Source: a virus. From it: a stretch of 25,822 nt of DNA. The stretch's first letter is position 1. The number at the start of each line of letters is the position of its first letter. Where the stretch lies: IMG/VR virus record IMGVR_UViG_3300025921_000067, positions 1-25,822 of that record. One strand, given 5' to 3'. This document shows, in pieces, positions 1,554-24,941 of the stretch. A program made the position numbers and the translations under genes. The notes under the pieces are model-generated. The model worked only from the letters and a program-made list of their open reading frames with translations, was not told the origin of the DNA and searched no databases.

Positions 1554-1739
1554 ATGATTATCGATCCACGAGAGTTCCGCCGTTTTGCCGAGAGATTGCA
1601 AGAACTCACCAATGAGGAAGCGGCTGAGTTCATCCAACGGTTCAATGCTGAGGAAGCGAACCACGGCATGCCGAATCTCTTAGAGCGTCTTGGCGAGATT
1701 GCAGAACAAGAAGAGCCGAAGCGGACCGGTGCTGAATGA
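1554..1739 (+). CDS. Small helical hypothetical protein (61 aa)
   Basis: AGGAG at 1541-1545 sits eight bases before the ATG at 1554, which is preferred to the ATG at 1548 (two bases). The product is highly charged and probably an all-helical hairpin (REFRRFAERLQELTNEEAA). It ends in an ATGA overlap with the next gene, so the two are probably translated together. No family was recognised. Confidence 0.55.
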   Translation: MIIDPREFRRFAERLQELTNEEAAEFIQRFNAEEANHGMPNLLERLGEIAEQEEPKRTGAE

Positions 1740-2284
1740 CAGTCACGGCCTCGGCGATTGATCTGGTCATGCAGGTGCGAGCGGCCATCGGGCAGATGAA
1801 CGATCGAGATGCCCGCCTCTTCGCCTGCGACTGTGCCGAGCACGTGCTGCCGTTCTACGAACGCGCCTTCGCGGGCGATGATCGAGCGCGGCGCGTGGTG
1901 AATGCGGCCCGTGAACTGGCCGGCGCGCCGGTCGATGTGATGCAAGAGGCGCTGCATGCCGGGCCATATCGCCAGCTTGAGGCAGCGCTCATGAAGGCCA
2001 AAGGCGGCGCGCTCAAACTCAGCTATCGGCGCGGGCGATATCGCCAGATGACGGCCATGGCGGCGATCGCCAGCACGGCCCATTATTGCCTCTATAGCGA
2101 CGCCCATTCGGCGGCCATACTTGCGATGGATATGGCCGGTGAAGCGGTGCGCATGCTTAATAAGGAAGGGAGTGACGCGGAACAGATCGAACGCGCCTGG
2201 CAGCTAGAGCGAGCGGCCTGGTATCTGACAGCTAATTTGACACCTAATTTGGTTTCCATAGGCTCGCGAGAGAGTGCGAGTTGA
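1736..2284 (+). CDS. Imm5-like all-helical protein (182 aa)
   Basis: The start overlaps the previous stop (ATGA). Residues about 25-60 read FACDCAEHVLPFYERAF followed by DDRARRVVNAAREL. This resembles a helical family (Imm5-like) that I associate with putative immunity proteins of polymorphic toxins, where the pattern is ADCAERVL...PDDNRPR.AIEAAR. The middle carries several alanine-rich helices (MTAMAAIASTAHYC). Its 3' end contains the two left arm-type repeats of the proposed attP, so the gene reaches into the attachment region. Position next to att and behind its own promoter is typical of accessory or lysogenic-conversion genes. The family call is from remembered motif patterns only; the function is open. 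Confidence 0.45.
   Translation: MTVTASAIDLVMQVRAAIGQMNDRDARLFACDCAEHVLPFYERAFAGDDRARRVVNAARELAGAPVDVMQEALHAGPYRQLEAALMKAKGGALKLSYRRGRYRQMTAMAAIASTAHYCLYSDAHSAAILAMDMAGEAVRMLNKEGSDAEQIERAWQLERAAWYLTANLTPNLVSIGSRESAS
2225..2252 (+). repeat. Left integrase arm-type repeats (two copies)
   Basis: GACAGCTAATTTG (2227-2239) is followed at once by GACACCTAATTTGG (2239-2252). The first lies within a 13-base sequence, CTGACAGCTAATT, that recurs exactly at 2514-2526 on the other side of the tRNA-like core. Directly repeated short sites on both flanks of a tRNA-derived core, beside an integrase gene, are the usual layout of a tyrosine-integrase attP. Confidence 0.55.
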
Positions 2285-2350
2285 TGCGAGCATCAGGTGC
2301 CGGAATCCTTGATAGAATCAGGGAAAACAGGAGAACACGCGATGATCTGC

Positions 2351-2439
2351 GAGGGTATGAATAGGGCCGTAATCAGTCTTCAAAACTGTTGTGCGGGGTG
2401 ACGAGCCTCGCAGGTGGGTTCGACTCCCATGCACCCTCG
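2351..2439 (+). tRNA. Selenocysteine-tRNA-like sequence (anticodon UCA); probable attP core
   Basis: The acceptor GAGGGTAT pairs with GCACCCTC (2431-2438) with one A-C mismatch and one wobble: eight positions, as in bacterial tRNA-Sec. G73 and CC follow. The anticodon arm has CAGT/ACTG around loop CTTCAAA with UCA at 2380-2382. A 7-bp long variable arm (2392-2398 with 2406-2412) and a 5-bp T arm with loop TTCGACT follow. The region that should form the D arm (2359-2373) is only 15 bases and folds into no stem. An intact 3' part joined to an unrelated 5' part is what an attP taken from a host selC gene would look like, and the integrase lies about 0.3 kb away. A functional phage tRNA decoding UGA is less likely because phage genes here commonly end in TGA. 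Confidence 0.6.
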
Positions 2440-2471
2440 CCCCTCATTCGTACGCGGATATCCACCAATGA

Positions 2472-2499
2472 GGCCGGAGCGCTCAATGCTCCGGCCTTG
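2472..2499 (+). terminator. Terminator-like hairpin after the tRNA-like core
   Basis: GGCCGGAGC (2472-2480) pairs with GCTCCGGCC (2488-2496) around a seven-base loop, followed by TTGTCATTT. It is strong as a stem but has an interrupted T tract. It probably stops rightward transcription from 1101-2284 before the minus-strand lysogeny genes. Confidence 0.6.
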
Positions 2500-2513
2500 T
2501 CATTTCTGACCTG

Positions 2514-2533
2514 CTGACAGCTAATTGGTTAGC
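2514..2533 (+). repeat. Right integrase arm-type site with inverted repeat
   Basis: CTGACAGCTAATT (2514-2526) repeats the left site at 2225-2237 exactly. It runs into GCTAA-TTGG-TTAGC (2520-2533), so a second inverted copy of the core overlaps it. Together with the left pair it brackets the tRNA-like core. Confidence 0.5.
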
Positions 2534-2552
2534 TTATCGGTTTTTGACGATG

Positions 2553-2750
2553 TTACTCGGGCCGCTTGACCAATTCGATGTCATCCATCTTCACGCCGAA
2601 TAGTTCGGCAAGCTTTCTGAGTTGTGAGACTTTCGGCTCATAGATACCGCGCTCCCAGTTCGAGACGGTGCCCGGCGTGACGCCAGCCTTCACCGCAAGC
2701 TCGAACTGAGTCCAGACCTGGCATTCGCGTAGATGGCGAATCGTCTGCAT
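2553..2750 (-). CDS. Small XRE-family helix-turn-helix protein (65 aa)
   Basis: The whole protein is one XRE DNA-binding domain: TQFELAVKAGVTPGTVSNWERG carries the two helices of the HTH, and KVSQLRKLAELFGVKMDDI completes the five-helix fold. It has no C-terminal oligomerisation domain. It lies between the integrase stop and the proposed right arm of attP, in the integrase orientation, so it is probably expressed with it. A role as excision-control or Cro-like regulator would fit, but the target is unknown. Confidence 0.8.
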   Translation of the reverse strand: MQTIRHLRECQVWTQFELAVKAGVTPGTVSNWERGIYEPKVSQLRKLAELFGVKMDDIELVKRPE

Positions 2751-2764
2751 GGTTGCCTCAGTCG

Positions 2765-3916
2765 TTAGCCCAGCAGGGCGTCCATCTCGGCGGCGGCTTG
2801 CTGGTGCATGGCCGGGATGTAGTGGCTGTAGATATCGAGGGTAATGGCGATGGAACTATGCCCCAGCATCTCTGAGACCACCTTCGGATGCACGCCCCGG
2901 CTTAGCAGGAGCGTGGCACAGGTATGCCGCAGATCGTGGAAACGGACATCCGGCAGACCGAGCCGCTTGGTCAGCCGCCCGAAGATCTTCCGCATCTCCG
3001 AGCCGTAGATCGGCGTGCCGTGGCTATTCAGGAATACGAGGTCATCATGGCCGGGCCAGTCCGGCCCCAGGGCTAAGCGCAGTTCGAGGAGCTGCGTGCG
3101 CTGAGCGCGAAGAGCTGTGACCGCCATGGCTGACAGGTGGATCGTGCGGCGCGATGGTTTCGTCTTGGGTTCGGCCGCGTGCTTACCGACGCCCGGCTCA
3201 TAGGTCATCTGTTGGGCGACGTGCAATTGCGCGGCGTCAAGATCCACGTCACGCCAGCGCAGACCGAGGAGCTCGCCTTCGCGCATGCCGGTGGTCACGG
3301 CCAGCACGAGCAGACGGTGATACCAGTGTGGCGCCTGTTCGGTATAGTCCAGCAGCCGCGTCACCTCTTCCTCGGTGAGCGGATGGATCGGCGCCGGTTC
3401 CGGTCGCGGCGGCGTGGCACCGGCGGCCGGATTGCGCATCAAGAGACCCCAATCGACCGCCTGTTTCATCGCCTTCTTGAGCATCGTATGGGTGTTGTGA
3501 ATCGAGCGGTTCGAGAGACCCGACGCGCTCAGGTCCGCATAGAGCTTCTGGATATCGAGCGCCCGGACCTTGCTCAACTTCTTCTTGCCGAGACGCGGCC
3601 CAATGCGCACCCGGACCATCGACTCGTAGCCGCCGTAGACGCGCGGCCGTAATGTCGGCTTGACCGAGGCCAGCCAGTCGGTCAGATATTCGGCCAGCGT
3701 CGGGTTCGTCGAGGCCGTGACGCCGGCGTCGCGCTCATCTCTGAGTTCTTTGAGCTTCGAGCGTGCCGCCGGATAGGTGTCCGCCGAGCGCGTCCGCCGG
3801 ACGCTCTTGCCGCTGGCATCCGTCACCCACAGCGCCGCAATCCAGCCGGGCCGATCCTTGCGCTGGTAGACAGTGCCGAGACCGTATTCACCGCGCTGGA
3901 TCGATTTTTTGGTCAT
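2765..3916 (-). CDS. int: Tyrosine-family phage integrase (383 aa)
   Basis: Three parts can be read. An N-terminal arm-binding, AP2-like segment spans about residues 10-65 (GLGTVYQRKDRPGWIAALWV). A core-binding SAM-like domain spans about 70-165. The catalytic domain spans about 180-383. Catalytic residues are visible: Arg in TTGMREGELLGLRW, Lys in EPKTKPSRRTIHLS, HDLRHT, LGHSS and the nucleophile Tyr in ITLDIYSHY. The length is typical of integrases from temperate phages of Gram-positive hosts and Chloroflexota. It recombines attP with attB; a tRNA-Sec-like attP with arm repeats lies downstream at 2225-2533. The start overlaps the stop of the 3913-4116 gene (ATGA). No frame damage is seen. 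Confidence 0.95.
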   Translation of the reverse strand: MTKKSIQRGEYGLGTVYQRKDRPGWIAALWVTDASGKSVRRTRSADTYPAARSKLKELRDERDAGVTASTNPTLAEYLTDWLASVKPTLRPRVYGGYESMVRVRIGPRLGKKKLSKVRALDIQKLYADLSASGLSNRSIHNTHTMLKKAMKQAVDWGLLMRNPAAGATPPRPEPAPIHPLTEEEVTRLLDYTEQAPHWYHRLLVLAVTTGMREGELLGLRWRDVDLDAAQLHVAQQMTYEPGVGKHAAEPKTKPSRRTIHLSAMAVTALRAQRTQLLELRLALGPDWPGHDDLVFLNSHGTPIYGSEMRKIFGRLTKRLGLPDVRFHDLRHTCATLLLSRGVHPKVVSEMLGHSSIAITLDIYSHYIPAMHQQAAAEMDALLG

Positions 3917-4116
3917 GGCTGATCGTTCGAGAACGTACAGATGTAATCAACGCCGGCGGCCCGACGCGCCAGCCAGCCGGGCAACAATAACCGCTGTGTC
4001 AGTTTCGGCTTGCGCGGCACTTCGCTGGTTGCGACCAATCGCCAGCCCGCGCGGGCGAGTTGATCGACCGCTGCCTGTCCCTCGCGCACGCTGCGATACT
4101 GTTTCGTCATCTGCAT
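3913..4116 (-). CDS. Small hypothetical protein upstream of integrase (67 aa)
   Basis: AGGAGG stands five bases before the ATG, and the stop overlaps the integrase start (ATGA); both support a real gene. The protein contains QAAVDQLARAGWRLVATSEVP, a pattern like small DUF4177-type proteins that pair a helix with a following WRLV strand. Its first 170 bases overlap the 3' end of the ImmA/IrrE frame, which is unusual in this genome. Function unknown. Confidence 0.6.
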   Translation of the reverse strand: MQMTKQYRSVREGQAAVDQLARAGWRLVATSEVPRKPKLTQRLLLPGWLARRAAGVDYICTFSNDQP

Positions 4117-17662: not shown

Positions 17663-17735
17663 GCTTTCGTAGCTCAATTGGCAGAGCGGCTGTTTTGTAA
17701 ACAGCGGGTTGTGGGTTCGAAGCCTACCGGAAGCT
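17663..17735 (+). tRNA. tRNA-Thr (UGU)
   Basis: A full cloverleaf: GCTTTCG/CGGAAGC acceptor (one G-U), GCTC/GAGC D stem, GCTGT/ACAGC anticodon stem with loop TTTGTAA, and T stem GTGGG/CCTAC with loop TTCGAAG. CCA is not encoded. This is the most regular tRNA of the island. Confidence 0.9.
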
Positions 17736-17790
17736 CTAGGGTGGCGGCGTGGCTATATGACACGCGAATCGCGCATCAGGGAGTTGTCAA

Positions 17791-17860
17791 CGGGAGGTGG
17801 TGCAGTGGTAGCACGCGCCATGTGGTTGGCAAGGGGGCTGTTCGATTCAGTCCCTCCCGA
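17791..17860 (+). tRNA. tRNA-like RNA, Pro(UGG) or His(GUG) type, abnormal anticodon arm
   Basis: Acceptor CGGGAGG/CCTCCCG, D stem GTGC/GCAC and T stem GGCTG/CAGTC with loop TTCGATT are all good, and A73 follows. The anticodon arm folds only as GCC/GGC around the eight-base loop ATGTGGTT, or as GCCA/TGGC with a six-base loop; no normal 5-bp stem with a 7-base loop exists. C1-G72 with A73 and the bases UGG fit proline; U33 followed by GUG fits histidine. An eight-base loop would recall frameshift-suppressor tRNAs, but degeneration is equally possible. Confidence 0.55.
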
Positions 17861-17926
17861 TTAAAACGAGGCGTCACTTCACGCCTACCTGATGCTTAGC
17901 CGGGGCAGGACCGGCCCACCCTACAC

Positions 17927-17999
17927 GGGCCTATAGCTCTAACGGCAGAGCGGCGCCCTTGCAAGGCGATGGTTCGGGGTTCGAATCCTCGTGGGTCCA
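17927..17999 (+). tRNA. tRNA-Ala (UGC)
   Basis: Acceptor GGGCCTA/TGGGTCC includes the G3-U70 pair that identifies alanine tRNAs. D stem GCTC/GAGC, anticodon stem CGCC/GGCG with loop CTTGCAA, and T loop TTCGAAT are normal; the 27-43 pair is G-A. CCA is not encoded (CAC follows). Confidence 0.88.
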
Positions 18000-18103
18000 C
18001 GGACGGTGTCCAAATACACCCAACCCCGACCGGGTTGTAAAGCCTTGGCATGACGTTGCCGGTAAAGATCGGTGCGAAGAAATCTCGCGGGAAACCGGCG
18101 GTC
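18000..18103 (+). other. Structured spacer between tRNAs; no gene seen
   Basis: Small inverted repeats can be read: GGTGT/ACACC (18005-18020), AACCC/GGGTT (18021-18035) and GCCGGT (18058-18063) with ACCGGC (18094-18099). No cloverleaf or reading frame could be supported. It may be processed spacer or part of an unrecognised small RNA. Confidence 0.35.
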
Positions 18104-18182
18104 GTCTCTGTAGTTCAAATAGAAAGAACACCGGGGCCTTGAACAAGCACCGGCGACATCGGGGCGGTACCGATCAGGGACA
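18104..18182 (+). ncRNA. Degenerate tRNA-like element with non-consensus T loop
   Basis: GTCTCTG pairs with CAGGGAC (18175-18181, one G-U), A73-CC follows, GTTC/GAAC makes a D-like stem and ATCGG/CCGAT a T-like stem. The T loop is GGCGGTA rather than TTCGANT. The anticodon region is CCGG, a 15-base loop containing TTGAA, then CCGG. A T run follows at 18189-18193. The overall geometry is tRNA-like, but it is probably not an ordinary tRNA. Confidence 0.35.
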
Positions 18183-18226
18183 CCGACCTTTTTATTGACT
18201 GGGCATGGCCCTGATGCCGGGCCACA

Positions 18227-18298
18227 GCGCATGTAGCTCAGTGGTAGAGCGGACGGTCTCAACAGCCACGGTCGCAGGTTCGAGTCCTGCCATGCGCA
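18227..18298 (+). tRNA. tRNA-like RNA (CAA in loop; Trp/Leu-like), weak anticodon stem
   Basis: Acceptor GCGCATG/CATGCGC, D stem GCTC/GAGC with loop AGTGGTA, and T stem GCAGG/CCTGC with loop TTCGAGT are perfect. The anticodon arm has only three pairs next to loop CTCAACA (anticodon CAA), with mismatches at 27-43 and 28-42. ACGGTCTC resembles tRNA-Trp, whose anticodon is CCA. A short variable loop argues against a normal leucine tRNA. Confidence 0.6.
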
Positions 18299-18364
18299 CA
18301 CCGAGTGTTAGCCGAGCTTGGAAGGCGCCATAAAGTCGGCTCGTGGCCATGACGAAGCGTGGCA

Positions 18365-18435
18365 GTGCATGTCGTCTAAAGGCAGGACGCCGGCCGATGT
18401 GGCCGGGGGTGGCCGTTCGATTCGACCCATGCGCA
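18365..18435 (+). tRNA. tRNA-like RNA with Glu-like D arm and unusual anticodon loop
   Basis: Acceptor GTGCATG/CATGCGC (one T-G), D arm TCGTCTAAAGGCAGGAC as in tRNA-Glu, a perfect CCGGC/GCCGG anticodon stem, and T loop TTCGATT. The loop is CGATGTG: position 33 is G instead of U and positions 34-36 are ATG, not a standard anticodon context. The 3' strand CATGCGCACA is the same as in the previous RNA. Confidence 0.6.
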
Positions 18436-18482
18436 CAAGGTCCGAGGATCGCGACTGATTTTATTCACATTCTCGCGCTGAT

Positions 18483-24865: not shown

Positions 24866-24937
24866 GGGGATGCCAGGAACGCCCGACCGGTGCCAGTGCG
24901 CTGATCGGATACGGCGGTTCGATTCCGCCCATCTCCA
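24866..24937 (+). ncRNA. tRNA-like RNA without a D arm, between minor capsid and scaffold genes
   Basis: Acceptor GGGGATG (24866-24872) pairs with CATCTCC (24930-24936), including a G3-U70 pair; A73-CC follows. The T stem GGCGG/CCGCC with loop TTCGATT is perfect. A stem CCGGT/ATCGG (24887-24891 with 24904-24908) has a 12-base loop instead of seven. Only 14 bases join it to the acceptor, with no D stem. It starts right after the capsid stop and is followed by a terminator hairpin. Confidence 0.55.
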
Positions 24938-24941
24938 CCGT

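Follow-up and report, generated by a model that had tools for sequence, protein, structure and literature searches.

The DNA analysed here (the window) is a 25,822-nucleotide stretch of the IMG/VR virus record IMGVR_UViG_3300025921_000067. Near its left end, a sequence resembling the 3' half of a selenocysteine tRNA (tRNA-Sec) gene, selC, lies between two pairs of short repeats and close to a tyrosine integrase gene. The features of this locus are listed below; the parts of the tRNA were assigned by eye, and the paired repeats were found by a repeat search and have same-spaced counterparts at relatives of the integrase.

1736-2284: gene for a PF21805 Imm5-like protein (E 3.5e-7), whose 3' end includes the P-side arm sites
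2226-2249, plus strand: P-side pair of putative arm-type sites, TGACAGCTAATT TGACACCTAATT, 12-nt spacing
2349-2356, plus strand: GCGAGGGT, the perfect complement of 2433-2440 (ACCCTCGC), which imitates a 5' acceptor strand and is not demonstrably a selC 5' half
2374-2445, plus strand: putative att core, a copy of selC from the anticodon stem to G73 plus 6 nt
2374-2377/2385-2388, plus strand: anticodon stem, CAGT/ACTG
2378-2384, plus strand: anticodon loop, CTTCAAA, with a UCA anticodon
2378-2388, plus strand: anticodon loop and 3' anticodon stem, the proposed strand-exchange region by analogy with Thermomicrobium sp. CFH 73360
2392-2398/2406-2412, plus strand: variable stem, 7 bp
2414-2430, plus strand: T arm
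2431-2438, plus strand: acceptor 3' strand, 8 nt
2439, plus strand: G73
2515-2538, plus strand: P'-side pair of putative arm-type sites, TGACAGCTAATT GGTTAGCTTATC, 12-nt spacing, 76 nt past G73
2553-2750, minus strand: 65-aa HTH protein of the Cro/CI type, apparently sharing an operon with the integrase
2765-3916, minus strand: tyrosine integrase (PF00589 and PF14659) facing the tRNA 3' end, with R212, K251, H327, R330, H353 and Y363

The Rfam model for tRNA-Sec (RF01852) matches positions 2351-2438 (+) with 50.6 bits against a gathering score of 47, and the D-arm region is collapsed in this match. The first-pass annotation had described a UCA anticodon, a long variable arm, an 8-position acceptor and G73 in a sequence that lacks a D arm. 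The four features are present as listed, and the missing D arm was borne out, as the acceptor-like start and the anticodon loop are separated by 27 nt in the window and by 32 in most of the genuine selC genes compared. The complete cloverleaf with a D arm that is required of a functional tRNA-Sec gene is thus lacking, and ARAGORN called no tRNA for the tRNA-Sec-like sequence at 2351-2438.

A pattern composed of the anticodon loop, T loop and acceptor, rather than of the whole sequence, was run once, blind, through about 85,000 genomes. It matched four selC genes, all of which are full tRNA-Sec genes, in a Thermomicrobiaceae MAG (locus L002, genome G001), a Chloroflexi MAG, Thermomicrobium sp. 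CFH 73360 (G003), and a Syntrophobacteria MAG. Positions 2374-2445 are 97.2% identical to the selC of the Thermomicrobiaceae MAG over 72 nt (70/72), and the match runs from the anticodon stem past the 3' end, while the DNA upstream of 2374 is not selC. The phage site therefore carries the 3' part of a bacterial tRNA gene up to its 3' end, starting at the position that the first-pass annotation had predicted when it proposed a search of Chloroflexota selC genes. The remaining selC genes of the class are 72-94% identical to this core. One of the two mismatches is a base in the loop of the variable arm and the other is the last base of the encoded CCA (GCCA in the host, GCCC in the phage), so that the selC of a lysogen would need CCA addition, as appears already to be so for those Thermomicrobium selC genes that do not encode CCA. 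A selB gene scores above the family cut-off in G001, G003 and a third genome, G127, and selC is therefore probably in use in these organisms.

Could the likeness to selC reflect general tRNA consensus, with the site serving another tRNA or another target? Sister integrases do target other tRNAs, and one member of the integrase clade described below sits at a tRNA-Tyr gene. However, the 70/72 identity spans the selC-specific anticodon loop, variable arm and 8-nt acceptor, and the best alternative match within the class is another selC, which makes this reading extremely unlikely.

It was also considered whether the sequence represents more than half of a selC gene. The 8-bp inverted repeat formed by GCGAGGGT and ACCCTCGC makes the selC half score as a tRNA-Sec; such pairing has a probability of 0.0009 in Markov sequence, a figure for a feature that was examined after the fact. 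A decayed full selC was rejected as the source of the upstream 28 nt, because 143 of 2000 shuffles match selC 5' halves as well and 429 of 2000 random phage 28-mers align as well. In 11 other half-sites the longest acceptor complement is 3-5 nt (nine sites), 6 nt (L188) or 7 nt (L103), so that 6-8 nt complements occur in three of the 12 half-sites compared, the window included, with about 0.4 expected. The L103 site (1918-2009), from another virus, is a tRNA-Sec-like half that lacks a D arm (47.3 bits); the 7-nt acceptor complement belongs to this site, and an integrase fragment lies at 1059-1691. The complement might be kept so that attP, or its remnant in attR, is made into a tRNA-like transcript, which might for instance act as a decoy or be a processed 3' end; we regard this as improbable, and if true it would make the D-armless unit in attP more than a recombination site.

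Another proposal is that the phage encodes a tRNA-Sec that is functional without a D arm and assists in decoding UGA as selenocysteine, in its own genes or in those of the host. The score above the Rfam gathering threshold, the upstream 8-bp complement to the acceptor strand and the presence of other phage-encoded tRNAs at 17663-18436 fit such a role. Yet the sequence lies outside that tRNA cluster, between the arm sites and beside the integrase, and its 5' part resembles selC 5' halves no better than chance (the same 143/2000 shuffles). Bacterial SelA binds tRNA-Sec at its D arm, which is missing here. A functional tRNA is accordingly very unlikely. The cluster at 17663-18436 consists of five phage tRNA genes (Thr, undetermined, Ala, Glu, His). 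A further RNA-like sequence of 75 nt lies between head genes at 24866-24940; it matches Rfam tmRNA with 36.9 bits (E 1.4e-11), which is less than the gathering score, and it includes the tmRNA 3' end and lacks an mRNA-like part. Exact copies of its 27-nt 3' end are present in 60 viral stretches, and ARAGORN found no tmRNA within the 450 nt preceding that end in those 60 stretches.

The core is flanked by repeats of the kind expected of arm-type sites. The first-pass annotation had reported 13-base repeats bracketing the tRNA-like sequence together with degenerate copies, and the repeat search recovered the exact 13-mer at 2225-2237 and 2514-2526; the degenerate copies are those at 2238-2249 and 2527-2538. 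An exact repeat of this length arose in 17 of 5000 Markov resamplings of a 500-nt stretch, and TGACAGCTAATT, with at most one mismatch, occurs in the whole window only at 2226, 2238 and 2515 (0.05 expected). In all five integrase relatives examined (G003, G110, G122, G127 and G131), a tandem pair of ~12-mers with exactly 12-nt spacing is found in the spacer between the tRNA and the integrase, beginning ~62-95 nt past G73, and in G003 a second pair lies within the far end of the element, so that pairs are present at both ends. In a survey of 33 integrase loci, counting pairs with at least 9/11 matches, 12 was the commonest best spacing (10 loci), followed by 11 (5 loci). Because pairs spaced by 12 nt lie on both sides of the core and recur in the relatives, the 13-base repeats are best explained as arm-type sites that the integrase would bind.

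The integrase gene (2765-3916, minus strand, PF00589) adjoins the site, confirming its earlier placement beside the tRNA-Sec-like sequence, and its catalytic residues are kept in relatives. The closest solved structure is Tn1549 Int (PDB 6emy; E 5e-25), with which the phage enzyme shares the tyrosine recombinase fold over residues 96-381. Tn1549 Int differs in being the enzyme of a conjugative transposon, and the match leaves out the phage N-terminal domain, which had no meaningful match among solved structures. Tn1549 is not known to target tRNA genes. Pfam searches of the N-terminal domain in 17 members gave weak AP2 matches in six and Arm-DNA-bind_4 in two. The 65-aa HTH protein is a putative regulator, or possibly a directionality factor.

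The integrase and tRNA-Sec were each searched through 158 genomes of the class. In four of these genomes a close relative of the integrase lies beside selC, with 29-125 nt between its end and the selC 3' end, and is antisense to selC as in the window.

G131: integrase 47% identical, 116 nt from selC
G127: integrase 45% identical, 29 nt from selC
G003: integrase 42% identical, 57 nt from selC
G110: integrase 54% identical over 137 aa, 125 nt from selC

More relatives are likewise placed at tRNA-Tyr, Gln, Val, Lys, Phe, Thr, Pro, Leu and Ala genes. In a tree of 36 integrases, the phage enzyme belongs to an eight-member clade (support 92/98) that contains the four selC neighbours, one tRNA-Tyr neighbour and two integrases without a tRNA. 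The integrases closest to that of the phage, G128 (53-55%) and G133 (48-50%), have no adjacent tRNA. The placement of all four selC neighbours among the seven non-phage clade members of 33 in-group rows has a hypergeometric probability of ~0.0009 (35/40920) when relatedness is ignored, and a tree shuffle test of all seven labels, outgroup included, gave the weaker figure of 33/500. The clade is not confined to selC, as the G122 integrase, sister to that of G127, sits at tRNA-Tyr. These sister integrases are joined by short branches (L094 11440-11669 compared with L086 4200-4410), and the pair represents a recent target change between two tRNAs with long variable arms. For the G127 integrase, no convincing second core was found within the next 27 kb, and it may be a remnant, since the genes checked ~3 to 10 kb beyond it encode ABC-transporter and TPP-enzyme proteins.

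Thermomicrobium sp. CFH 73360 (G003) provides a direct view of what a related element does to selC. A full selC gene lies at C33:217411-217503 and a second selC 3' half in the same orientation at 208217, 9.2 kb apart, and the region between them encodes an integrase, a primase-polymerase and a family A DNA polymerase. No structural phage genes were recognised in this 9.2-kb element (L051, G003:C33:200486-220485), which is plasmid- or satellite-like. The far 3' half has the same sequence as the 3' half of selC in the relatives G121, G123 and G124, while the selC in place carries an element-specific 3' half (GAGCTCCGTCGG... ATGCACCCTC). When the host 5' half is joined to the far 3' half, the intact selC of G121 is obtained, and in G126 the DNA flanking both sides of the element is contiguous at an empty selC. 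The original host half is thus found at the far end of the element, in agreement with the half-swap predicted for integration. The host and element versions switch within CTTCAAAACCGGTGGGCGGGGTGACGAGC, which places strand exchange of the G003 element in a 29-nt interval beginning at the anticodon loop.

The first-pass annotation had also proposed looking for prophages whose attL and attR contain the phage sequence. The outcome was favourable, as it was for the selC search: the att duplication in G003 and the integrases at selC 3' ends agree with the proposal. No lysogen of this phage was found in the 158 genomes of the class, where attL/attR junctions were seen only for the element of a relative. 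Compared with the same genomes, the phage DNA is similar only in short local stretches, among them parts of dnaB, terminase and tRNA genes. Among viral records, another record is identical to the window's record over 9.9 kb, blastn of 1700-4000 against phage records gave no match, and integrase patterns found no relative in viral contigs.

The record is linear and incomplete (a 25.8-kb IMG/VR fragment), and the window might for this reason be read as an attL or attR, the terminus of an integrated prophage that borders on host DNA to one side. Against this, the partial product of 2-400 on the left flank shares 39% identity with products encoded by Thermomicrobium selC prophages (L088, L089 and L105) and weakly matches a PHROG endolysin family, and the integrase on the right flank is followed by replication, terminase and portal genes. 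Additionally, the core has an arm pair on each side, and the window contains no full selC and no host flank. A prophage end is highly improbable; because phage genes lie on both sides, the site is an attP.

That selC serves other elements as an integration site, as had been stated in the first-pass annotation, agrees with reports from Pseudomonas (PMC7549136), Burkholderia (PMC7266877) and E. coli islands (PMC6174562). In Pseudomonas aeruginosa, Pf-tRNA-Sec filamentous prophages reside in the 3' part of tRNA-Sec via a dedicated tyrosine integrase; the integrase type of Pf prophages follows the tRNA target, and their attP comprises a 27-bp piece of the T-arm and 3'-end region (PMC7549136). The phage described here resembles them in its target and enzyme type, but it is a tailed phage of Chloroflexota rather than a proteobacterial filamentous one, and its site covers 72 nt from the anticodon stem. 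Burkholderia phage PhiE067 is likewise temperate, tailed and found in selC, which its authors termed a rarely identified phage integration site, whereas its attachment site at the 3' end is 19 bp and its host is Burkholderia (PMC7266877). The selC-linked E. coli islands share the insertion site, but are enterobacterial islands and not a phage attP (PMC6174562 and others). Restoration of the tRNA by an integrating element is textbook knowledge (Islander, PMC4383910).

Closer to the present host group, the 54-kb record IMGVR_UViG_3300020567_000320 (L104 and L105) is bounded by a full selC and, at its opposite end, by a selC 3' half, and is a whole prophage in a Thermomicrobium selC. Its integrase has ~30% identity to that of the window, the opposite orientation and a different lineage, and close relatives of it adjoin selC in G121 and G124. 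A broad pattern scan found more viral contigs with tRNA-Sec 3' halves; a stricter selC pattern had no match in viral contigs.

Taken together, we consider it very likely that a temperate tailed phage has its complete attP at 2226-2538 and that the attB is the selC of a Thermomicrobiaceae host. The proposal that the host selC serves as attB, made in the first-pass annotation, is supported by the 70/72 core, the integrases of relatives at selC and the half-swap in G003. We propose that the N-terminal domain of the integrase would bind the arm-site pairs on both sides (2226-2249 and 2515-2538) and that the enzyme would exchange strands within the core common to phage and host, with the anticodon loop as the most probable place. 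On integration, the host 5' half would receive the phage 3' half, leaving selC complete, and the host's own 3' half would be displaced to the far end of the prophage.

The principle is already known; in the literature searched, no selC-targeting viruses have been shown for this Chloroflexota group, and the titles and abstracts searched contained nothing relevant on Thermomicrobium prophages, Thermomicrobia phage integrases, or Chloroflexi selenocysteine tRNA with an integrase. The attachment site points to the likely host of an uncultured phage, a member of the Thermomicrobiaceae; we infer the host species from the identity of the attachment site, the kinship of the integrase and a small number of phage genes in common. 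The complete attP and integrase, with core and arm sites from a thermophilic clade, form a candidate integration system. The Thermomicrobium element is a sequenced record of a mobile element replacing one half of a selenocysteine tRNA gene, and at least two integrase lineages that are unrelated to each other share selC as a docking site in Thermomicrobia.
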